From Pelagibacteraceae bacterium AG-422-B15 (GTDB lineage Bacteria > Pseudomonadota > Alphaproteobacteria > Pelagibacterales > AG-422-B15): a stretch of DNA of 51,978 nucleotides. Below the pieces are notes generated by a model, which was not told where the DNA came from, searched no databases, and saw only the letters and a list, made by a program, of their open reading frames with translations. Positions 15,610-41,937 of this stretch are shown one piece after another. The stretch lies in the NCBI GenBank assembly GCA_003213715.1, contig QCMN01000008.1, forward strand, positions 1-51,978, given 5' to 3'. The first letter of the stretch is position 1, and each line of letters starts with the position of its first letter. Made by a program: the position numbers and the translations under genes.

Positions 15610-15619
15610 CTTGCAAAAA

Positions 15620-17029
15620 ATGTATCAAGATCTTAATCAGAATCAAGCTTCATCAGTAAATCTAAAAGATCAATGGAATTCAGTCTTAAAAAAGCTCAAT
15701 ACAGAATATGGAAATGAGATATTTAATAGTTGGATCAAGAATATTTCAATAAGAAACCTAGAGGAAGATGTTTTATACTTCACTGTGCCTACAAGATTTA
15801 TTAGAGATTGGATTACTTCACATTACTTAGATAAAATTATTTTTTTTCTAAACCAAGAAAATTCACAAATCAAAAGAGTAAAAATAAATATTGATAATTC
15901 GCTTACTGCTAATATGCTTAATATTGACAAAGATCCAAGTGACCAAAGAAAAATAAATTATAATACAAACAATTCTAATTACATTGATGATTGGCCGTTA
16001 GATGACAGATTTAAGTTTGATAAATTTGTTGTTGGTCCTTCTAATGAACTTGCTTTTGCTTCTTCAAAAAGATTTTGCTCAACTGACGTAAATGATTTTA
16101 ACCCTCTTTACATTTATGGTGGTGTTGGTTTGGGTAAAACTCACTTACTCCATGCAATTGGATGGAAATTAAAAGAAGAAAATACAGCTAACAGCGTTTT
16201 ATATCTTTCGGCTGAAAGATTCATGTTCCAATTTATAAAATCTCTAAGACAAAAAGATACAATGTCATTTAAGCAAAAATTTAGATCCGTAGACGTGTTA
16301 ATACTCGACGATATCCAGTTCATGATTGGTAAAGTTTCAACACAAGAGGAGTTTTTTCATACATTTAATTCACTATTGGATATGAACAAAAAAGTCATAA
16401 TTTCAGGTGATAGATCCCCAAGTGAACTAGCCAGCTTTAATGAGAGAATGAAGTCAAGATTATCAGGTGGACTGGTAGTAGATATTATGCCTGCAGATTT
16501 TAATTTAAGATTTTCAATTATTAAAAATAAATATGATGAACTTGTTAATAGAAATAAAAATTCATTAAGTCTAGATGAGGAGGTGTTATCGTTTTTAGCT
16601 AGAACAGTAACCTCCAATGTAAGAGAACTTGAAGGTGCTCTAAATAAAGTTTATACATTTTCAAATATTTTGGGTAAGAAAATCGATGTTGAACTAACTA
16701 AGTCGGTTTTAAAAGACTTACTTAAGTCTAATGATAGAAGAATTACTATAGATGAAATTCAAAAGAAAGTATCAAGTTATTATAACATAAAGCTTGACGA
16801 TCTCATATCTAGCAGAAGAATAAGAACTTTTGCAAGACCAAGACAAGTAGCAATGTATTTATCAAAAAAACTTACAACTAGGTCACTACCTGAGATTGGA
16901 AGAAAATTTGGAGGGAGAGACCATACGACTGTTATTCATGCAGTAAAAAAAATTGATGAATTAAAAGAACATGACTCTAAATTTGATGAGGATGTAAACT
17001 TGATTACTCAAATGATAACTTCTATTTAA
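15620..17029 (+). CDS. dnaA: Chromosomal replication initiator protein DnaA
   Basis: DnaA is the AAA+ ATPase that unwinds the chromosomal origin. The 469-residue protein has the N-terminal interaction domain (WNSVLKKLNTEYGNEIFNSW), a short Asn-rich linker and the AAA+ domain. That domain has Walker A GGVGLGKTH, Walker B VLILDDIQF and sensor region SNVRELEGALNKV. Domain IV carries the DnaA signature GGRDHTTVIHAVKKI. The strong ribosome binding site at 15603 selects the ATG. It heads dnaA–dnaN–recF–gyrB, the ancestral replication cluster. The preceding repeat-rich gap probably carries its promoter. Confidence 0.97.
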   Translation: MYQDLNQNQASSVNLKDQWNSVLKKLNTEYGNEIFNSWIKNISIRNLEEDVLYFTVPTRFIRDWITSHYLDKIIFFLNQENSQIKRVKINIDNSLTANMLNIDKDPSDQRKINYNTNNSNYIDDWPLDDRFKFDKFVVGPSNELAFASSKRFCSTDVNDFNPLYIYGGVGLGKTHLLHAIGWKLKEENTANSVLYLSAERFMFQFIKSLRQKDTMSFKQKFRSVDVLILDDIQFMIGKVSTQEEFFHTFNSLLDMNKKVIISGDRSPSELASFNERMKSRLSGGLVVDIMPADFNLRFSIIKNKYDELVNRNKNSLSLDEEVLSFLARTVTSNVRELEGALNKVYTFSNILGKKIDVELTKSVLKDLLKSNDRRITIDEIQKKVSSYYNIKLDDLISSRRIRTFARPRQVAMYLSKKLTTRSLPEIGRKFGGRDHTTVIHAVKKIDELKEHDSKFDEDVNLITQMITSI

Positions 17030-17053
17030 TCAATTACTGATGCTTAATACTTT

Positions 17054-18181
17054 ATGGAATTTAAAATAAATAGTTCAGATCTATTGAAGGCACTGTCTCA
17101 TATTCATGGAATTGTCGAAGTTAGACACACTTTGCCAATACTCTCAAACATTATATTAAAAGCTAAAGATAATGAATTAACTCTGTCATCGACTAATTTA
17201 GATATATATTGTGCAGACAAAATCAAAGCAGAAGTCTCTATAGCAGGTGAAATTTCAGTTTCAGCAGTAACATTTTTTGAAATCGTTAAACGACTTCCAT
17301 CAGGTTCAGAAGTATTGATGTCAATGGAAGAAGGTGAAAATGAAATTACACTAAAATGTGGAAGATCTAAATTCAACTTATCAACTCTTAAAACTGATGA
17401 TTTTCCAATTATTTCTGATAATGATTTATCAACAAACTTTATCATAAGCGCTGATGAATTGATTAGAATTATAGACAAAACTAAATTTGCAGTGTCAAAC
17501 GAGGAAACGAGATATTATTTAAATGGTATTTTTCTGCATAAAGCTGATAGGAATTCCATACAATTTTTAAGGGCTGTTGCTACAGACGGTCATCGCTTGG
17601 CACAATATGATATTCCACTTCCACAGGGCGCTGAAGAGATAACTGGTATTATCATTCCAAAAAAGACTATTTTTGAATTAAGAAAAGTGCTTGATGATGC
17701 CAATGGCGACGTAAGCGTTTCGTTAAATGAAAATAAAATTAAATTTACTTTTAATGATCTAAAGATCATCTCAAAGGTTATTGATGGTACATTTCCTGAC
17801 TATACAAAAGTTATACCTCAGAATAATAACAAAAATTTTAAGACGAATAATAATGAATTAAAAAATGCTATTGATCGTGTTTCAGCCGTTGCAACTAATG
17901 AAGAATCTAAATCTAAAGCAATCAAGTTATCTATTGAAGATAATAAGCTTAATCTAAGTGTTGAAAGTCAATCAAAAGGTTCAGCAAATGAGATATTAGA
18001 TATTAGCTATGATGGTGATAAAGTTGATATCGGTTTTAATTCTAAATATATTATAGATATTTGTAATGAAGTCGATGGAGAGGAAGTAGACATAAGTTTA
18101 TTAGACTCGGTCTCACCAGCCATTATTCTTGATAAGACAGATGAAAATCTATTTTTCGTTCTAATGCCAATGCGAATTTAA
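17054..18181 (+). CDS. dnaN: DNA polymerase III beta subunit (sliding clamp)
   Basis: DnaN forms the dimeric ring that tethers DNA polymerase III to the template. The 375-residue protein has three clamp folds. It shows the N-terminal start MEFKINSSDLLKALSHIHGIV, the conserved TLPILSNIILKA, ATDGHRLAQYDIP in the second domain and a typical C-terminus LFFVLMPMRI, which forms part of the peptide-binding cleft. It starts 24 bases after dnaA and ends two bases before recF. No unusual features. Confidence 0.97.
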   Translation: MEFKINSSDLLKALSHIHGIVEVRHTLPILSNIILKAKDNELTLSSTNLDIYCADKIKAEVSIAGEISVSAVTFFEIVKRLPSGSEVLMSMEEGENEITLKCGRSKFNLSTLKTDDFPIISDNDLSTNFIISADELIRIIDKTKFAVSNEETRYYLNGIFLHKADRNSIQFLRAVATDGHRLAQYDIPLPQGAEEITGIIIPKKTIFELRKVLDDANGDVSVSLNENKIKFTFNDLKIISKVIDGTFPDYTKVIPQNNNKNFKTNNNELKNAIDRVSAVATNEESKSKAIKLSIEDNKLNLSVESQSKGSANEILDISYDGDKVDIGFNSKYIIDICNEVDGEEVDISLLDSVSPAIILDKTDENLFFVLMPMRI

Positions 18182-18183
18182 TT

Positions 18184-19299
18184 ATGTATCCTAATACTAG
18201 GATTGACAAAATTTCGCTAATTAATTTTAAAAATCATTTAAATACAAATCTAAAAGATCTCAGTTCATTCGTTGTCCTTAATGGAAATAATGGATCAGGA
18301 AAAACAAATATATTAGAGGCGATATCACTTTTTTCACCTGGTCGTGGTATAAAAAATTCACGCTTTGTGGAGATGCCAAATAAGGATAAGGATCAAAAAA
18401 ATTTTAAGATTAAAATTAATGTAAAGTATGACACTGGTGAAGTTGAACTTTTTCGAAGTTTTTCATCTGTGGAAAAAAATAAAAACTACATTTCAGTAGA
18501 TAATGAGAAAATTACTAATTTTCAATTATTAGAATTCATAAATATATTATGGATTACACCAATTATGGAAAAAGTATTAATTCAAAGTAACTCAGAGAAA
18601 AGAAATTTTTTTGACCGTCTTATTTTCAATATAAATAAAAACCACTTAAAAAATTATGCAAAATTGCAAAAATTACTAAGCGAGAGATTAGCTTTATTGA
18701 AAGAAAAAAATTACGATACAGATTGGTTAAGTATTGTTGAAAAAAACATTGCAAACCTCTCGGTTAAATTGCTAATTGATAGGATAACTTTTATTGACCA
18801 ACTTAATAATAACTTGAGATCTGTTAAAGCTCCTTTTAATGCATGCCAAGTCGATATTTATCATGAATTATCCAAATTAGGCAATATTAGTAATTCTGAA
18901 GATTTTATAGAAAAGTATATAAATGCATTAAATAAAAATAGGGAAATAGATTCTGCATTAAACAAAACTACCTTAACAGTTAACAAGGTAGAAATTAAAA
19001 TATTCAATAACATTGAAAGGATTATTGAAGCTAGAAATTGCTCAACCGGGGAACAAAAATCTATATTACTTTCAATATTCTTATCAGTTGCTAATATGGT
19101 AAAAGACCAAAACAACTGTCGTTCCCCTATTATTTTAATTGATGAGGCAATGGCACATCTGGACACTGAACATAAAGAATTTCTATTTAGTGAGCTAGAG
19201 GGTTTAAAATCACAAGTATGGTTCTCTGGTGTTTCAAAAGATCTATTTGAGAATATTAATAACCAAACTGTTTTCTTTGACATGAAAAATGTTGTATGA
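18184..19299 (+). CDS. recF: DNA replication and repair protein RecF
   Basis: RecF is an SMC-like ATPase that helps load RecA at single-strand gaps. The 371-residue protein shows the N-terminal Walker A (LNGNNGSGKTNILEAISLFS), the signature-region equivalent STGEQKSILLSIFLSVAN and the Walker B/D-loop PIILIDEAMAHLD. The central arm is Asn/Lys-rich and less conserved. ATG 18184 lies two bases after the dnaN stop, indicating translational coupling. gyrB follows 22 bases downstream. Confidence 0.95.
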   Translation: MYPNTRIDKISLINFKNHLNTNLKDLSSFVVLNGNNGSGKTNILEAISLFSPGRGIKNSRFVEMPNKDKDQKNFKIKINVKYDTGEVELFRSFSSVEKNKNYISVDNEKITNFQLLEFINILWITPIMEKVLIQSNSEKRNFFDRLIFNINKNHLKNYAKLQKLLSERLALLKEKNYDTDWLSIVEKNIANLSVKLLIDRITFIDQLNNNLRSVKAPFNACQVDIYHELSKLGNISNSEDFIEKYINALNKNREIDSALNKTTLTVNKVEIKIFNNIERIIEARNCSTGEQKSILLSIFLSVANMVKDQNNCRSPIILIDEAMAHLDTEHKEFLFSELEGLKSQVWFSGVSKDLFENINNQTVFFDMKNVV

Positions 19300-19321
19300 T
19301 GCAATAAAATAAAACATATAA

Positions 19322-22437
<3,116 letters not shown>

Positions 22438-29626: not shown

Positions 29627-32443
29627 ATGGCAGAAAAAAATCACCTATTTTTGGTTGATGGATCAGGATATATTTTTAGAGCATATTACGCATTGCCGCC
29701 ACTATATCGAAAAAGTGATGGGCTGCCAACAGGGGCAGTGAATGGTTTTTGTAATATGCTTTATAAATTAATTGAAGATACTGACAAAAAGATTAGCCCG
29801 ACACATCTAGCGGTAATTTTTGACAGTGCCAGAAAAACTTTCAGAAATGATATTTATAAAGAATATAAAGCTAATAGAGGTGATCCACCAGAAGACTTAA
29901 TACCACAATTTAAAATAATTAAGGATGCTGTGAAAGCCTTTGGTATACCATCTATTGAATTAAGTGGTTATGAAGCAGATGATATTATTGCAACATATGC
30001 ATCACTCGCAGAAAATAAAAAATGGAGTGTATCCATAGTTTCCTCCGATAAAGATCTAATGCAAATTGTTTCAAATCAGGTGAAATTAATTGATACAATG
30101 AAAAATAAAACTATTGGACCAAGTGAAGTAATTGAAAAGTTTGGAGTCACCCCTGAATATGTAATCGATGTTCAAGCTCTAGCTGGCGATAGTTCAGACA
30201 ACGTTCCAGGAGCTCCAGGCATAGGAGTAAAAACAGCAGCACAGCTGATAAACGATTTTGGTAATTTAGAAAGTCTTCTTGATAACTGTGATAATATTAA
30301 GCAGCAAAAGAGAAGAGAAACAATTAAAGGTAATAAGAAAAATATTCTTATTAGTAAAGAACTAGTAACTTTGCGAAAAGATGTAAAGGACATTCCAGAA
30401 CTCAATGATTTAATTAAAAAAGAAGTTTCCGTTGAAAAATTGATACCTTTTTTAGACGAGCTTGAGTTAAAAAAACTCTCTGAGAGAATTAGAAAAAAAA
30501 ATCCTAGCGTAAAAATAATAGCGAAGAGTCAAATAAAAACAAATAAACAAAGAAATTCAAGCGGCGATAATAAAATTCCTGATAGAAATTTGAAAAATCA
30601 AATCAAAATTTCTAAATCTAAATCTTCTTATATTTTAATAAATGATGAAGAAAATCTTAAAAATTTGATTAGTGAAATCTATAATGTAGGCGAGTTTGTG
30701 TATGATGTTGAAACTAACTCGCTAAATATAATTGAAGCTAATTTAGTTGGAGTTTCTTTATGTTTTAACCAAGAAAATGCGTACTATATTCCACTTCAGC
30801 ATGTTGACCAGGAAGAAAAGACTGTTAAAAGTCAAATTTCTCTAAAAAACTTTCTAACAATTATTTCTCCTTTGATGAATGATGAGTCCATCATAAAAAT
30901 AGGCCACAATATTAAATATGACAACTCGATTTTAAATAAATATGGAGTCGATGTTAAAGGCTTTCACGATACTATGTTAATGTCTTATGTGCTTGATGCA
31001 GGTGTCAATCGACATAGCATGGATGAACTAGCCAGTATCCATTTAAATAGACAAACAATTAAATTCAAAGATGTAGTTGGTAGTGGTAAGTCCCAGATAA
31101 CTTTTGATAGGGTTAAAATTGAAGATGCGTTAAATTATGCAGCTGAAGATGCAGAAATTACTTTTAAACTGTATCTTTTTTTAAAGAAAAGAGTTAACCA
31201 GGAGAGAGGTAATTACATTTATACTAACATTGAAAGAGAACTAATAAATCCAATCCAATCAATGGAGATTAATGGAATTAAAGTTGACAAGAAATATCTT
31301 AGTAATTTATCAATTAAATTTTCGCAAAGAATAGAAAAACTTGAGAAAAAAATATACAAAGAAACAGGCTCAGAATTTAATATTGGTTCTCCAAAACAAT
31401 TATCAGAGATCCTTTTTGATAAATTAAAACTGAAGCCTCCGAAAAAAACTAAAACTGGCGAAAAATCAACGGGTATCGAAGTTTTAGAGGACCTTGCATA
31501 CGAAGGAAATAAAGTTGCTGACAATATTATTCAGTGGCGACAACTCTCAAAACTCAAGAACACTTATACTGACGCACTCCAAAATCACATTGTCAGAGAA
31601 ACAGGTAGAATACATACTTCATTTGCTATGGCTTCAACTAATACGGGAAGACTTGCATCATCAGATCCAAATTTACAAAATATTCCGATAAGAACTGAAG
31701 AAGGAAAGTCAATTAGAAAAGCTTTTGTACCTGATGAAGGGTTTGTCATGCTAGCTGCTGATTATAGTCAAATTGAACTAAGAGTTCTTGCTCATATGGC
31801 TGATGTTAAACAATTAAAGGAAGCATTCATAAATAATGAAGATATTCACCAAATTACAGCTGCAGAAATTTTTAATGTAAAATTAAAAGAAGTTGATAAT
31901 GAATTAAGGAGAAAAGCAAAAGCAGTTAACTTTGGTATAATATATGGCATTTCAGCTTATGGACTTGCGAAGCAGCTCGCAATTTCAAACTATGAAGCGG
32001 GAGATTTTATAAAAAGATATTTTCAGAAATTTTCAGGTATTAGAGAATTTATGGATCATACTAAAGAGTTTTGTCGGAAAAATGGCTATGTAGAAACAGT
32101 CTGTGGAAGAAAATGTTTTTTCCCAAGAATAAAGGATAAAAATTTTGCGCTTAGATCATTTCAGGAAAGAGCAGCAATAAATGCTCCAATTCAGGGTACT
32201 GCAGCAGATATAATAAAATTAGCTATGATAAAAATAAATGGTAAAATCAAAAATTCAAAGGACTGCAAAATGTTACTGCAGGTTCATGACGAATTAATAT
32301 TTGAAATAAAAAAGAATAAATTAAACCAATTCAAGGAGATAATAATAAAGGAAATGGAAAATGCTTTAAAACCTAAATTTGATTTTTCAGTTCCTCTAGT
32401 AGTTGAATACAACCATGCTTCAAATTGGAGTGATGCTCATTAA
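29627..32443 (+). CDS. polA: DNA polymerase I
   Basis: Pol I fills gaps and removes RNA primers. The 938-residue protein has all three domains. The 5'-nuclease (VDGSGYIFRAYYALPP, GYEADDIIATYA, DSSDNVPGAPGIGVKTA) is N-terminal. The 3'–5' exonuclease follows, with catalytic Asp360-x-Glu362 (YDVETNSLN), GHNIKYDNSIL and YAAEDAEITF, so proofreading looks intact. The polymerase domain has ADYSQIELRVLAHMAD, the O-helix RRKAKAVNFGIIYG and motif C QVHDELIFE. A Lys-rich linker lies around residues 300–325. The stop codon overlaps the next ATG by one base (TAATG), coupling it to the nucleotidyltransferase–cupin gene. Confidence 0.97.
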   Translation: MAEKNHLFLVDGSGYIFRAYYALPPLYRKSDGLPTGAVNGFCNMLYKLIEDTDKKISPTHLAVIFDSARKTFRNDIYKEYKANRGDPPEDLIPQFKIIKDAVKAFGIPSIELSGYEADDIIATYASLAENKKWSVSIVSSDKDLMQIVSNQVKLIDTMKNKTIGPSEVIEKFGVTPEYVIDVQALAGDSSDNVPGAPGIGVKTAAQLINDFGNLESLLDNCDNIKQQKRRETIKGNKKNILISKELVTLRKDVKDIPELNDLIKKEVSVEKLIPFLDELELKKLSERIRKKNPSVKIIAKSQIKTNKQRNSSGDNKIPDRNLKNQIKISKSKSSYILINDEENLKNLISEIYNVGEFVYDVETNSLNIIEANLVGVSLCFNQENAYYIPLQHVDQEEKTVKSQISLKNFLTIISPLMNDESIIKIGHNIKYDNSILNKYGVDVKGFHDTMLMSYVLDAGVNRHSMDELASIHLNRQTIKFKDVVGSGKSQITFDRVKIEDALNYAAEDAEITFKLYLFLKKRVNQERGNYIYTNIERELINPIQSMEINGIKVDKKYLSNLSIKFSQRIEKLEKKIYKETGSEFNIGSPKQLSEILFDKLKLKPPKKTKTGEKSTGIEVLEDLAYEGNKVADNIIQWRQLSKLKNTYTDALQNHIVRETGRIHTSFAMASTNTGRLASSDPNLQNIPIRTEEGKSIRKAFVPDEGFVMLAADYSQIELRVLAHMADVKQLKEAFINNEDIHQITAAEIFNVKLKEVDNELRRKAKAVNFGIIYGISAYGLAKQLAISNYEAGDFIKRYFQKFSGIREFMDHTKEFCRKNGYVETVCGRKCFFPRIKDKNFALRSFQERAAINAPIQGTAADIIKLAMIKINGKIKNSKDCKMLLQVHDELIFEIKKNKLNQFKEIIIKEMENALKPKFDFSVPLVVEYNHASNWSDAH

Positions 32444-33219
32444 TGTCTGAAATAATTGTACTTGTAACCGGGGGATTTGATCCGATTCACAGCGGGCATA
32501 TTGCATATCTAAAGGACGCAAGAAAATTAGGTGATAAACTTATTGTAGGAGTCAATTCTGATCAATGGTTGACACAAAAAAAAGGAAGCTCTTTTCTCCC
32601 AATAGCGGAAAGAATTGAAATAGTATCAAATTTATCCGTAGTGGATGAAGCGATTGAATTTAATGATGATGAATTAAACTCGGCATCTGATGCAATTCAA
32701 AAAGTAATAGATAAATATCCAGATAATAAAATAATTTTTGCAAATGGAGGCGATAGAACATCAGATAATATTCCTGAGATGGAAAAATTTAAAAATAATA
32801 ATAATGTAATATTTGAGTTTGGTGTTGGAGGTGATTTTAAAAAAAATTCATCCAGTTGGATATTAAAAAATTGGCAAGGACCACTTGAGTACAGACCTTG
32901 GGGTTGGTTTAGAATAATTGATGATAGTGATGATCATAAAATTAAGGAAATACAAGTAAATCCAAATTCAAGACTTAGTTATCAGTCACATGCCAAGAGA
33001 TCTGAAGTATGGACGGTTATCAAGGGCGACGCTACTGTACTGATTGATGACATTCAGCATAATTTAAAAATTAATAATTCAATTTTTATTCCGGTAGGCA
33101 GTAAACATCGACTTGAAAACAACACTGATTCACCGCTAAATATAATTGAAGTGCAGACAGGTACATATTTTGGTGAGGATGATATTATCAGATACGAAGA
33201 CGATTATGACAGAAATTAA
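32443..33219 (+). CDS. Nucleotidyltransferase–cupin fusion (TagD/HldE-C-like plus mannose-6-phosphate isomerase type II cupin)
   Basis: A two-domain protein of 258 residues. Residues 1–140 form a cytidylyltransferase-like domain: VLVTGGFDPIHSGHIAYLKD contains the HxGH nucleotide site (His16, His19), and FANGGDRTSDNIPEME fits the later substrate region. Residues 150–258 match the type II phosphomannose isomerase cupin: EYRPWGWFRI, QSHAKRSEVWTVIKGDATV, SIFIPVGSKHRLEN and the hallmark IIEVQTGTYFGEDDI. The combination suggests synthesis of a nucleotide-activated sugar or sugar phosphate, but the substrate is unknown. It is translationally coupled to polA and 5 bases before an MFS gene. Fusion by sequencing error is unlikely, as one frame spans both domains. 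Confidence 0.82.
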   Translation: MSEIIVLVTGGFDPIHSGHIAYLKDARKLGDKLIVGVNSDQWLTQKKGSSFLPIAERIEIVSNLSVVDEAIEFNDDELNSASDAIQKVIDKYPDNKIIFANGGDRTSDNIPEMEKFKNNNNVIFEFGVGGDFKKNSSSWILKNWQGPLEYRPWGWFRIIDDSDDHKIKEIQVNPNSRLSYQSHAKRSEVWTVIKGDATVLIDDIQHNLKINNSIFIPVGSKHRLENNTDSPLNIIEVQTGTYFGEDDIIRYEDDYDRN

Positions 33220-33224
33220 AACAA

Positions 33225-34493
33225 ATGAGTAAGCTTCCTGCAAATAAGTATTTAGCTTTCTTTCTTCTGCTTAATATCTTTAATTTTGTTGATAGAAACT
33301 TATTAATGGCTTTTGCTAATGAAATAAAAAGTGATTTTAATCTTTCAAATGTTGAATGGGGTCTTTTAACAGGCGTTTATTTTCTTTTCTTCTATTCGAT
33401 ATTTGGAATTTTTATGGGAGTTCTTGGAGATAAATTTAATAGAATGAAAATTATTGCAGTAGGTGTCTTCTTGTGGAGTCTTATGACTGCATTTACGGGT
33501 ATAGCAAAAAGTTTTATTCATTTGATTATTGCAAGGGCCTTAATTGGTATCGGCGAGTCAGCTCTAACTCCAAATGCAGTTTCAATGCTTTCAGACCTAT
33601 TCCCACAAAATAAAAGAGCGACAGCATCAGCAATTTATTATCTAGGTATCCCACTTGGTGTTGGAGTTGGTTTAATTATAGCCTCTGTATTTGGACCTTT
33701 ATTTGGATGGAGAGCAGTTTTTATAACATTGGGTTTAATTGGTATGTTTTTAGCAGTAATAACATATTTTCTTACTGTACCCAAAAGAGGTGAACAAGAA
33801 AATTTACAAAATATAAATCAGAAAAGTTTATCAACTAAAGAAATAATTTCGAAAACTTTTGAGACTTTTTCAAATTCAAAATCAATTATATTTTTAATAA
33901 TTGGTGGTATATTTATGCACATACCTCTTGGTACAGGAAATTTTGAACTCCTATGGGCAGTTAATGAAAGAGGTTTCACAAGCTCGTCTTACAATTTAAT
34001 GTTTGGAACTTTCTTTATAGTAGGCGGAACGTTTGGCGCTATTGTAGGCGGAATTGTAACAGATAAGTTTGGTCCTAAATTTGAGGGTGGTGCAATGACA
34101 GTTCTGACCATCTCATATCTAATATTAACGCCTCTGACTATAAGTTATAGGTTTATCGAACCGAGTGGATTATTTTTCTATTTTACTTTATTTTTTATAT
34201 CTGTGAACGTTACATTTTGGGTAGGGCCTATATTTGCAGCAATGCAAACACTTACACCATATAAAGTAAGATCAACAATGTTGGCAGTATTTATCTTAGG
34301 CGTAAATATAATAGGTATGGGATTAGGTAGCTTCGTTACCGGGTACCTTGCCGATTATGTATTTAATGATACAGCCTCACCATACACTTGGTCACTAGTT
34401 GCTGTAGGAGCAACAGGAATTGTATCAATACTTTGTTTTTATATTGCTAGTTTTAATTATAAAAAAGACGCAGAATTTGCTATGCAATCTTAA
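33225..34493 (+). CDS. Major facilitator superfamily transporter
   Basis: Inner-membrane secondary transporter of 422 residues with about 12 hydrophobic segments. The first half contains [19 protein letters not shown] and the loop 2–3 motif [11 protein letters not shown]. Helix 4–5 has [18 protein letters not shown], resembling the spinster-like branch of the MFS. The second half repeats the motif as [15 protein letters not shown]. The substrate cannot be assigned; related proteins carry organic acids or lipids. It starts five bases after the fusion gene, so may be in the same transcript. Its stop shares four bases (TTAA) with the convergent pckA stop. Confidence 0.85.
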
Positions 34494-39825: not shown

Positions 39826-40275
39826 ATGCTTCTGAAAAATGAGAGGGATACTCAACTTTTTGCTAGAAAATTAGTCAAGTTTTCTAAAGGTAGTAATATA
39901 GTAATTTGTCTTAATGGTAATTTAGGATCTGGAAAAACCACATTCAGTAGGTATTTTATTCAAGAGTATTTAATAGATGCAAAAATAAAAGAAATACCAA
40001 GTCCAACCTTCACCTTATTGCAGGTGTATGAACATAGAAATATTAAAATAAATCATTTTGATTTTTATAGACTAAATTCAGCTGCAGAGTTAGTTGAGTT
40101 AAATTTTATGGAGTCTACATTTGACGATGCATGTTTAATAGAATGGTCTGATAAATTTAAAGAAATTCTTCCATCAGATCGAATAGAAATTATATTTAAA
40201 ATTTTAAAAAATAATAATCGTAATGTTGACATAAAAAAATTTGGTAGGTTTAAAAATTTAAAAATCGATGGATAA
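39826..40275 (+). CDS. tsaE: tRNA threonylcarbamoyladenosine biosynthesis protein TsaE
   Basis: TsaE is the small ATPase that works with TsaB and TsaD to form t6A37 in tRNAs reading ANN codons. The 149-residue protein has the P-loop LNGNLGSGKTTFSRYF. It also has SPTFTLLQVYEH, the HFDFYRLNSAAELVEL region and the catalytic-side CLIEWSDKF. It is the first of a run tsaE–amgK–murU with overlapping ends, common in alphaproteobacteria. amgK begins 8 bases before its stop. The length is normal. Confidence 0.94.
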   Translation: MLLKNERDTQLFARKLVKFSKGSNIVICLNGNLGSGKTTFSRYFIQEYLIDAKIKEIPSPTFTLLQVYEHRNIKINHFDFYRLNSAAELVELNFMESTFDDACLIEWSDKFKEILPSDRIEIIFKILKNNNRNVDIKKFGRFKNLKIDG

Positions 40276-41248
40276 TCGTTTCAATAAGCTATTATTATAT
40301 TTAGAGCAACAGAAAATCTCTACTAAAAATTTAGTTGCAATTAAAAGTGATGCATCTTTCAGAAAATATTATAGATTAGAAAATAATATCCTAGCCATGG
40401 ATGCAGCGCCTGAAAAGGGTGAGTCAGTTTCAAAATTTTCAGAAATTGCAAGTATACTTCATTCATTTAGTTTAAGTGCTCCTAAGATAATAGATGTAAA
40501 TGACAAGGAAGGTTTCATTCTTCTAGAGGATTTTGGAGATAAAGTTTTTTCTAAACATATGAATAAAGAAAATAAAAAAAATTTATACAAAAAAGCAATT
40601 GATGTTCTAATAGATATAAAAATTAAATCTCATCAAAATAAATCTTATTTAAGTAAATTAAAAAATTATAACTTTGAGGAGCTATATAGAGAGTCAATTT
40701 TATTTATTGAATGGTTCATTGAGAAAAAACTTGGAATGCAGATAAGCAATAAAAAAAGAGATGAATTTTATCAAATTTTACAACAAGCTTTCTTAAATAT
40801 AAAATCTCAAAACGATACTCTTGTTCTTAGAGATTACCACGTTGATAATTTAATTCTAAAGGATCATAAGGAGCCTCTAAAACAAGTTGGTTTAATAGAT
40901 TTTCAAGACGCATTATTAGGTTCATCATTTTATGACCTTGCTTCGCTATTGGAGGACGTACGCATGCCCTTAAATGAAAATGAAAAAGAAGAATTAATTA
41001 AATACTATATTAAAATGACGAATGAAAATTATGATATGGTTCTTAGAGAAATCAACTTTTTTTCTCTCCAGAGAAACCTAAAAATTCTTGGGATATTTAC
41101 TAGACTTTCGATTAGAGATGGAAAAGAAAGATATTTAGAGTATTTTCCCACAACTTTTAATTTTATTAAATCAAATTTAAAATCATCATTGTTTTGTGAT
41201 ATGAAGAAATGGATTGAAGAATTGCAGATAAAAGAGCTTCAATTATGA
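40268..41248 (+). CDS. amgK: N-acetylmuramate/N-acetylglucosamine kinase AmgK-like phosphotransferase
   Basis: AmgK phosphorylates the anomeric position of MurNAc (and GlcNAc) in a peptidoglycan recycling route that bypasses de novo UDP-MurNAc synthesis. The 326-residue aminoglycoside phosphotransferase-fold protein has KSDASFRKYYRL near the start. Catalytic and metal motifs are LVLRDYHVDNLIL and VGLIDFQDALLGSSFYDLAS. It is sandwiched between tsaE (8-base overlap) and the MurU-like gene (4-base ATGA overlap). That is the same order as known amgK–murU pairs, which supports this over a generic phosphotransferase. Confidence 0.87.
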   Translation: MDNRFNKLLLYLEQQKISTKNLVAIKSDASFRKYYRLENNILAMDAAPEKGESVSKFSEIASILHSFSLSAPKIIDVNDKEGFILLEDFGDKVFSKHMNKENKKNLYKKAIDVLIDIKIKSHQNKSYLSKLKNYNFEELYRESILFIEWFIEKKLGMQISNKKRDEFYQILQQAFLNIKSQNDTLVLRDYHVDNLILKDHKEPLKQVGLIDFQDALLGSSFYDLASLLEDVRMPLNENEKEELIKYYIKMTNENYDMVLREINFFSLQRNLKILGIFTRLSIRDGKERYLEYFPTTFNFIKSNLKSSLFCDMKKWIEELQIKELQL

Positions 41249-41937
41249 AGTCTTCAATTATTCTTGCTGCAGGGTTAGGTAAAAGGGTAAGAGAATATTC
41301 TTTGGATCTACCAAAGCCACTGATTGAGGTAAACGGAAAACCCTTTATAGAATATTCAATAAATATTATGGAGGAGTTAGGCTTTGAGGAAATCTTCATT
41401 AACGTTCATTACAAATCTGACCAAATTATCTCGTATTTAACAAATCTAAATAATCCAAAAATCAAAATTTCTGATGAGACAGATTGCCTATTAGATACTG
41501 GTGGTGGAATAAAAAAAATTATGGATGAAAATAGAATAGAACATGTGTTTATTTTAAATTGTGATAATTTATGGGAAGATGAAGACACTGTCTTCTTTAG
41601 GGAAATGATAGTGAATTTTCCAAAAGATACAATGTCGTTACTTGCTCTAACGCCGATAGATCTTATAAGTGGCTATGATGGTAAAGGTGATTTTTCATTT
41701 ACAAAAGATGACTATATACAAAGATATAATGATACAACTAGTAAAGGCTACGTATTTAATGGTGCTCAGATTATTAGAAAAGAAGCATTCAAAGACTTAA
41801 AAAGTAATGTTTTTTCAATTAATCAAGTATGGGATGATTTAATTTCAAAAAATTTGATCAAAGGCTACAAATTCAATAAAAATGTTTTACATCTTGGTAC
41901 TACAGCAGCTTTAAAAAAATACGACGAGAAATTATGA
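41245..41937 (+). CDS. murU: N-acetylmuramate-1-phosphate uridylyltransferase MurU-like
   Basis: MurU makes UDP-MurNAc from MurNAc-1-phosphate and UTP, the step after AmgK. The 230-residue nucleotidyltransferase has the signature IILAAGLGKRVREYS followed by LPKPLIEVNGKPFIEYS. It also has NVHYKSDQI, DTGGGIKKIM and the metal-binding Asp in FILNCDNLW. Size and signature fit MurU rather than the longer RmlA or GalU. The ATG overlaps the amgK stop (ATGA), and its own stop overlaps the DsbA-like gene start (ATGA), so four genes are coupled. Sugar specificity is inferred from context. Confidence 0.86.
   Translation: MKSSIILAAGLGKRVREYSLDLPKPLIEVNGKPFIEYSINIMEELGFEEIFINVHYKSDQIISYLTNLNNPKIKISDETDCLLDTGGGIKKIMDENRIEHVFILNCDNLWEDEDTVFFREMIVNFPKDTMSLLALTPIDLISGYDGKGDFSFTKDDYIQRYNDTTSKGYVFNGAQIIRKEAFKDLKSNVFSINQVWDDLISKNLIKGYKFNKNVLHLGTTAALKKYDEKL

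Follow-up and report, generated by a model that had tools for sequence, protein, structure and literature searches.

Within a stretch of 51,978 nucleotides of the genome of Pelagibacteraceae bacterium AG-422-B15 (contig QCMN01000008.1, assembly GCA_003213715.1; hereafter the window), a single gene encodes a chain in which a HIGH-type nucleotidyltransferase domain is joined to a type II phosphomannose isomerase (PMI) cupin (Table 1). The open reading frame (ORF) runs from an ATG start to its stop without internal stop codons, and this fusion is present as a single copy in the genome. Residues 8-121 matched the Pfam family CTP_transf_like PF01467 (E 2.9e-16, 60.3 bits against a gathering threshold of 21), and residues 150-253 matched MannoseP_isomer PF01050 (E 2.4e-35, 121.7 bits against 23.6). 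Because 47 loci of the window lineage encode this chain at 61-96% identity, and phages and SAR86 do so at 42-55%, the gene can be regarded neither as a chance ORF nor as an assembly artefact. In agreement with these data, the fusion that an earlier sequence-only reading of this DNA had described is upheld, and so are its hallmark motifs, i.e., HxGH (H16-S-G-H19) in the first half and VQTGTYFGEDDI (residues 237-248) in the cupin. Further motifs of the nucleotidyltransferase half are GGFDPIHSGH (residues 10-19), KKG (46-48), ANGGDR (100-105) and VGGDFKKNSSSW (128-139).

Table 1. Features of the fusion gene and its immediate neighbours in the window
Feature	Position	Strand	Description	Basis
Fusion gene	32443..33219	+	258 aa, HIGH-type nucleotidyltransferase plus type II PMI cupin	ORF, Pfam, NCBIfam, AlphaFold2
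Nucleotidyltransferase domain	32452..32877	+	Residues about 4-145	PF01467 match 8-121, invariant columns, structure matches
Type II phosphomannose isomerase cupin domain	32890..33201	+	Residues 150-253	PF01050, structure match, invariant residues
polA	29627..32443	+	Directly upstream of fusion	ORF, named by sequence
MFS transporter	33225..34493	+	5 bases downstream of fusion	ORF, PF07690 E 7.8e-47

When the chain was compared with NCBIfam, no model fitting its whole length was present among the best 25 of 36 matches. The cupin side was matched best by ManC (TIGR01479; 126.7 bits, cut-off 372.95), of which it covers just the C-terminal quarter (model positions 359-466 of 467). Among models of defined enzymes, the one closest to the N-terminal half was HldE domain II (TIGR02199, 71.1 bits, cut-off 181.5), with glycerol-3-phosphate cytidylyltransferase (TIGR01518) at 43 bits (cut-off 165.4). 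The label "cytidylyltransferase-like", which had been given to this half, thus holds as a superfamily name only. The phage family PHROG 7878 bears a heptose name.

An AlphaFold2 model of the fusion, built from an alignment of 92 family members, reached a mean pLDDT of 92.4 and a pTM of 0.69, the latter giving no firm arrangement of the two domains. In VIA-align comparisons the cupin matched the phosphomannose isomerase of Thermococcus barophilus (7zvm; Z 16.7, 1.5 Å over 101 residues), and the N-terminal half matched 3glv (Z 16.6, 121 residues), the glycerol-3-phosphate cytidylyltransferase of B. subtilis (1coz_A; Z 16.2) and HldC (5xf2; Z 15.2). These structural matches, together with those in Pfam and NCBIfam, support the earlier proposal that a nucleotidyltransferase of another fold takes the place of the GDP-mannose pyrophosphorylase domain to which this cupin is usually attached.

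Residue conservation was scored over the 92 aligned relatives, whose identity to the window protein extends down to 42%. In the first half G10, G11, F12, D13, P14, H16, G18, H19, K46, K47, R57, N101-R105, K133, S136 and S137 were invariant in 92/92, and in the cupin Q181, H183, R186, E188, H222, E236, E245, D247 and R250 were likewise invariant, so that neither half has lost any of its putative active-site residues in these relatives. Q181, H183, E188 and H222 presumably represent the Q/H/E/H set of metal ligands of phosphomannose isomerases; a modelled cupin devoid of such ligands had been named as an observation that would speak against the fusion, and at the level of the sequence all four putative ligands are in place. 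According to PMC9602691, the Ser, Gln and His of a common 9-residue motif are important, and the window segment S179-Y-Q181-S-H183 holds all three, with S179 kept in 91/92 relatives.

Within the window's genus, the full fusion was found in 32 of 36 genomes. The four genomes lacking it (G005, G016, G021 and G022) had no match at 1e-40 to the C-terminal part of polA either, and the fusion/polA stretch is therefore probably unassembled in them. None of the 23 genomes of the sister family within the Pelagibacterales holds the fusion, and at least 64 of the 121 SAR86-order genomes sampled hold it. Among the named relatives in the best 80 of 287 loci, 47 belong to single-cell genomes and metagenome-assembled genomes (MAGs) of Pelagibacteraceae/Pelagibacterales, some of them labelled AG-422-B15, and the remainder belong to SAR86, to other Gammaproteobacteria or Pseudomonadota, and to one Neomarinimicrobiota MAG. 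The latter, RS350, carries the fusion on two contigs together with the phage-type neighbours c1, c4, c12 and c20; because these neighbours are phage gene clusters, the contigs are perhaps viral. Three SAR86-order genomes (G070, G131 and G142) contain two fusions apiece, the second copy in G131 being of the divergent SAR86b type.

Relatives were also abundant in viral sequences. At least 600 stretches of IMG/VR matched a pattern, and 594 of them contain a gene related to the query in whole or in part; the best 80 match nearly the whole fusion. An earlier scan had given 30 loci of this kind and a further one truncated at the end of its contig. Among 50,697 records of cultured phages, none covered 80% of a phage fusion query at one place. 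With the window protein as query, one Acinetobacter phage, vB_AbaM_3098, covered 80% at 24.9% identity, with a cupin that looks different. Its protein (L252:3956-4729, annotated as hypothetical) is far more divergent; it combines a HIGH-type nucleotidyltransferase half with that different cupin and is perhaps a second, independent pairing of both folds. None of the 402 matching plasmid records covered 80% of the fusion. In the cyanophages S-SSM7, S-SCSM2R and Sf-FS3 the nucleotidyltransferase half has a gene to itself, with DNA polymerase on one side and recA/uvsX genes on the other; its annotation differs among the phage records, being either heptose kinase/adenylyltransferase or else glycerol-3-phosphate cytidylyltransferase, and 2OG-Fe(II) oxygenase genes lie beside it in two of the three. 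S-SCSM2R has, in addition, a separate PMI cupin gene elsewhere in its genome.

The relationship between the fusion and ManC was analyzed by searching the TIGR01479 profile in 69 genomes, i.e., 18 of the genus, 23 of the sister family and 28 of SAR86, the last chosen for holding the fusion. The ManC pyrophosphorylase domain was present in 22/23 sister-family genomes and in 0/18 genus genomes, which gave only matches below 20 bits to the start of the model; it was also absent from all 28 SAR86 genomes, every one of which had been pre-selected for the fusion. A sample of 121 SAR86-order genomes was therefore drawn so as to avoid fusion-based selection, and 80 of them gave a match to the ManC model at a threshold of 1e-8. 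A hidden Markov model (HMM) of the fusion, run on those 80, showed that 64 genomes encode the full-length fusion, 16 encode ManC (one of them, G175, as an N-terminal ManC fragment alone, near a contig end) and none encodes both. For independent genomes the probability of such a lack of overlap would be 1.6e-6; these genomes, however, have ancestry in common, and the true value is higher. Matches to neither ManC nor a PMI-type cupin were seen in 41 genomes, which represent incomplete assemblies or lineages without such a route. A second weak match in the SAR86-order genome G184 was discarded, since it belongs to a longer protein that by eye resembles an enzyme of the sialic-acid-synthase type with a cupin.

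A gene acting on GDP-mannose was retained in a number of fusion genomes. GMD (GDP-mannose 4,6-dehydratase) scored over its curated cut-off in 10/18 genus genomes, including 8 of the 14 fusion carriers among them, and in 5/28 SAR86 fusion genomes, which makes 13 fusion-carrying genomes in all; the GMD-positive genomes of both groups lacked any ManC pyrophosphorylase match above 20 bits. The GMD-like protein of the window genome, at 398.6 bits, lies just under the cut-off of 415. Moreover, in two SAR86 genomes (loci L113 and L126) the genes follow the order fusion-wzz-gmd-fcl, two short ORFs preceding wzz in L126; their gmd products scored 609 and 583 bits (cut-off 415) and their fcl products 512 and 480 bits (cut-off 500), respectively. 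Two genes of the PGM/PMM family, enough to account for GlmM and a phosphomannomutase, occur in 14/18 genus, 23/23 sister-family and 23/28 SAR86 genomes, so that a mutase is available to a pathway containing the fusion. The second such gene of the window genome matched PgmG best, under the cut-off.

To look at other nucleotidyltransferases, the PF00483 proteins of five GMD-positive fusion genomes were listed (20 hits) and 10 of them were scanned with NCBIfam. With the exception of L242, the best matches were RmlA, GalU, MurU or RfbF, several of them being fragments or under the cut-offs, and hits of 450-460 aa have the length and sequence expected of GlmU.

Taken together, the exclusion of ManC, the presence of GMD without ManC, the wzz-gmd-fcl order, the availability of a mutase, the match and residues of the cupin and the glycan-gene context in phages favor the view that the fusion is a bifunctional enzyme and a non-orthologous replacement of ManC (AlgA/CpsB type), to which we assign a probability of about 0.6, both activities, the mannose-1-phosphate substrate and the GTP specificity being those that we infer. 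According to this proposal, the C-terminal cupin would convert fructose-6-phosphate into mannose-6-phosphate, a separate mutase of the PMM/PGM family would yield mannose-1-phosphate, and the N-terminal HIGH-type domain would transfer a nucleotidyl group, most likely GMP from GTP, onto mannose-1-phosphate to give GDP-mannose, which would then feed surface glycans. GTP appears as the probable donor because GMD is retained in the 13 fusion genomes and lies beside the fusion in two. The sequence-only reading had suggested that this alternative pairing may make a distinct nucleotide sugar; the alternative pairing stands, and the distinct sugar is less supported, since the ManC exclusion, GMD and the wzz-gmd-fcl order favor GDP-mannose. 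The product is thus probably the ordinary nucleotide sugar made by a new route. A more specific proposal, offered tentatively and at somewhat less than even odds, is that a GTP-dependent HIGH-fold mannose-1-phosphate guanylyltransferase joined to PMI displaced ManC in two major lineages of the ocean, SAR86 and a family of the SAR11 order, and that the gene, carried by phages within cassettes for surface glycans, may have been transferred by them from one host to another.

Several observations weigh against the replacement of ManC as just described. The enzymes of the HIGH superfamily known to us use ATP or CTP, and the use of GTP would be unusual. No GMD match at 1e-60 was obtained in 23/28 SAR86 fusion genomes, so that any general use of the fusion in SAR86 must be another mannose route. 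An RmlA-like nucleotidyltransferase of 289 aa is encoded in all three genus genomes inspected (L236-L238; G023, G027 and G001); L237 scored 275 against an RmlA cut-off of 361, and L236 and L238 look similar to it by sequence. No ManC-model match at 1e-8 was found in 41/121 SAR86-order genomes, and 2 of the 64 SAR86 fusions (G128 and G177) contain stop codons. G010, a genus genome outside the 18, has the fusion and a stand-alone PMI-like cupin of 113 aa (L286:960-1301) that adjoins two genes, one like a nucleotidyltransferase and separate from the cupin, the other like a glycosyltransferase; this second, weaker cupin match had been considered as ManC and was rejected on reading, and it shows that one genome can hold both the fusion and another PMI-like protein. 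As to the cupin itself, CapF cupins tie with PMI in the structural comparison (Z 16.1-16.5 versus 16.7), so that it is the sequence family, and not the fold alone, that identifies this half as a PMI. The residue preceding LSxQxH, R177 in the window protein, is an arginine in just 17/92 relatives; this position, which varies among the inspected ManC copies too, tentatively corresponds to R408 of the Pseudomonas type II PMI (PMC9602691).

The main rival keeps the fusion at the same position of the pathway with another nucleotide, the HIGH domain using ATP or CTP to form ADP-mannose or CDP-mannose and the GDP-mannose for GMD being supplied by an enzyme that went unrecognised. HldE domain II is an ATP-using enzyme and glycerol-3-phosphate cytidylyltransferase a CTP-using one, and both are among the N-terminal matches (71 and 43 bits, far below their cut-offs); the solved structures matched, 3glv, 1coz (a CTP user) and HldC 5xf2, point in the same direction, and the RmlA-like protein of the genus genomes, which has no assigned substrate, could be such an enzyme. 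The ManC exclusion and the fusion-wzz-gmd-fcl order nevertheless point to GDP-mannose, and in the GMD-positive SAR86 genomes G087 and G090 the PF00483 hits scanned (4 of 8) were best matched by RmlA, GalU, MurU and RfbF, with no guanylyltransferase among them. We consider this rival unlikely, albeit the strongest of those examined.

Rather less probable is that only one half is catalytic, i.e., that a nucleotidyltransferase carries a cupin for binding or sensing sugar phosphates, or that an isomerase carries a nucleotide-binding regulatory half. The cyanophages in which a nucleotidyltransferase without cupin adjoins DNA polymerase indicate that this half can stand by itself, and the pTM value does not fix how the domains are arranged; the invariance of the putative active-site residues of both halves in all 92 relatives, and the presence of both halves as separate genes in S-SCSM2R, speak against this reading.

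A heptose route, in which the cupin would act as sedoheptulose-7-phosphate isomerase in place of GmhA and the HldE-like domain would form ADP- or another NDP-heptose, is very improbable: HldE domain II is the nearest defined-enzyme model, PHROG 7878 bears its heptose name and the ketose-to-manno-aldose chemistry would be analogous, but the fusion is general in the genus and the heptose kinase is rare, its model matching at E<=1e-25 in 1/18 genus, 5/23 sister-family and 3/28 SAR86 fusion genomes and not in the window genome (85.5% complete), and GmhA (E<=1e-10) is patchy (7/18, 8/23 and 10/28, respectively) and co-occurs with the fusion in some genomes, the exclusion being with ManC.

The origin of the pairing was approached through trees of each half. 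In the careful cupin tree, from which five long-branch rows were dropped and in which 1 in 5 phage rows was kept, the window cupin grouped with its own lineage together with ManC and SAR86b cupins (99/100) and fell apart from most of the phage and SAR86 fusion cupins; a protein without the cupin motif (L147) was left out. Another tree run kept 1 in 3 phage rows. When a single clade of all fusion cupins was forced, it was not rejected (p-AU 0.19), and the tree of the nucleotidyltransferase half, with 1 in 4 phage rows, was poorly resolved. Repeated capture of PMI cupins by the same nucleotidyltransferase is possible and compatible with the cupin tree.

Regarding the neighborhood, the order polA-fusion-MFS was conserved in 47/47 loci of the window lineage, and in 42/47 the fusion overlaps polA by one base; in the window the polA stop and the fusion start share one base in TAATG. 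The MFS transporter gene is probably on the same transcript as the fusion, and inverted repeats flanking the fusion gene were sought and none was found. In all 15 sister-family genomes read (of 23), a response regulator gene comes directly after polA, 42-58 bases on, whereas in the window these two are separated by the fusion, the MFS gene and a gene reading as phosphoenolpyruvate carboxykinase. A functional link between polA and the fusion was considered and rejected, since in SAR86 the fusion sits at several unrelated places, including the edges of surface-polysaccharide clusters; the adjacency is accordingly taken as a matter of position. The statement that no surface polysaccharide cluster is adjacent therefore holds for the window lineage and fails for some SAR86 and phage relatives.

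DNA-replication genes also lie near the fusion in phages. Clusters c2 or c3, which read as uvsY and uvsX by sequence, were found within six genes of the fusion in 67/106 phage loci, and c1 or c4 in 60/106. The representative of c4 is a family 8 glycosyltransferase and that of c1 had no Pfam match; the representatives of other neighbor clusters include an FkbM methyltransferase, an epimerase and a UDP-glucose/GDP-mannose dehydrogenase, and four more had no match.

Elsewhere in the window, genes reading as dnaA, dnaN, recF and gyrB follow one another at 15611-21739, and because of this succession the window may adjoin a replication origin. At 40268-41937, just after a TsaE-like gene, a phosphotransferase gene is followed by that of a MurU-like nucleotidyltransferase, by sequence a pair of the AmgK-MurU type for cell-wall recycling.

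Bacterial surface glycans have GDP-mannose as a central precursor, and ManC commonly serves as a marker of a genome's ability to make it. If the fusion does the job of ManC, many SAR86 and SAR11-order genomes would be counted as lacking a step that they possess, and the gene is present on phage contigs as well. The fusion would then provide a second fold for mannose-1-phosphate activation and an instance of non-orthologous displacement that is open to direct testing. Both domain families were already known, and the pairing is new as far as the NCBIfam matches and the literature searched show; the earlier reading had raised the possibility that the architecture was already characterised, and no characterised example or description of it was found in that literature, mostly its openly accessible part.

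Among the known systems, the cyanophage stand-alone nucleotidyltransferases (S-SSM7 SSSM7_186, S-SCSM2R, P-TIM68 and Sf-FS3) share 50-55% identity with residues 1-144, those of S-SSM7 and S-SCSM2R keeping the family motifs, and differ in having no cupin on the chain. Archaea and cyanophages have type II PMI cupins that stand alone (7zvm, 7zvy and S-SCSM1 MPI; PMC9602691); these share the cupin fold, with 35% identity between S-SCSM1 MPI and fusion residues 151-240, and lack an attached nucleotidyltransferase. Glycerol-3-phosphate cytidylyltransferase (TagD/GCT, TIGR01518) resembles the first half in fold and in the motif GxFDxxHxGH, but the fusion remains at 43 bits against 165.4 and carries the cupin. 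HldE domain II/HldC (TIGR02199) belongs to the same superfamily, as reflected by the match to HldC 5xf2; the fusion, however, scores below the cut-off and has motifs of its own (NGGDR and VGGxxKxNSSSW), and most of the carrying genomes searched had no match to the heptose kinase. Finally, ManC/AlgA/CpsB (TIGR01479) shares with the fusion a C-terminal cupin of the type II PMI family and the overall role proposed here, whereas in the fusion, which has 258 aa versus about 470 and scores far below the ManC cut-off (126.7 against 372.95 bits), an unrelated HIGH-type domain replaces the pyrophosphorylase domain of another fold.

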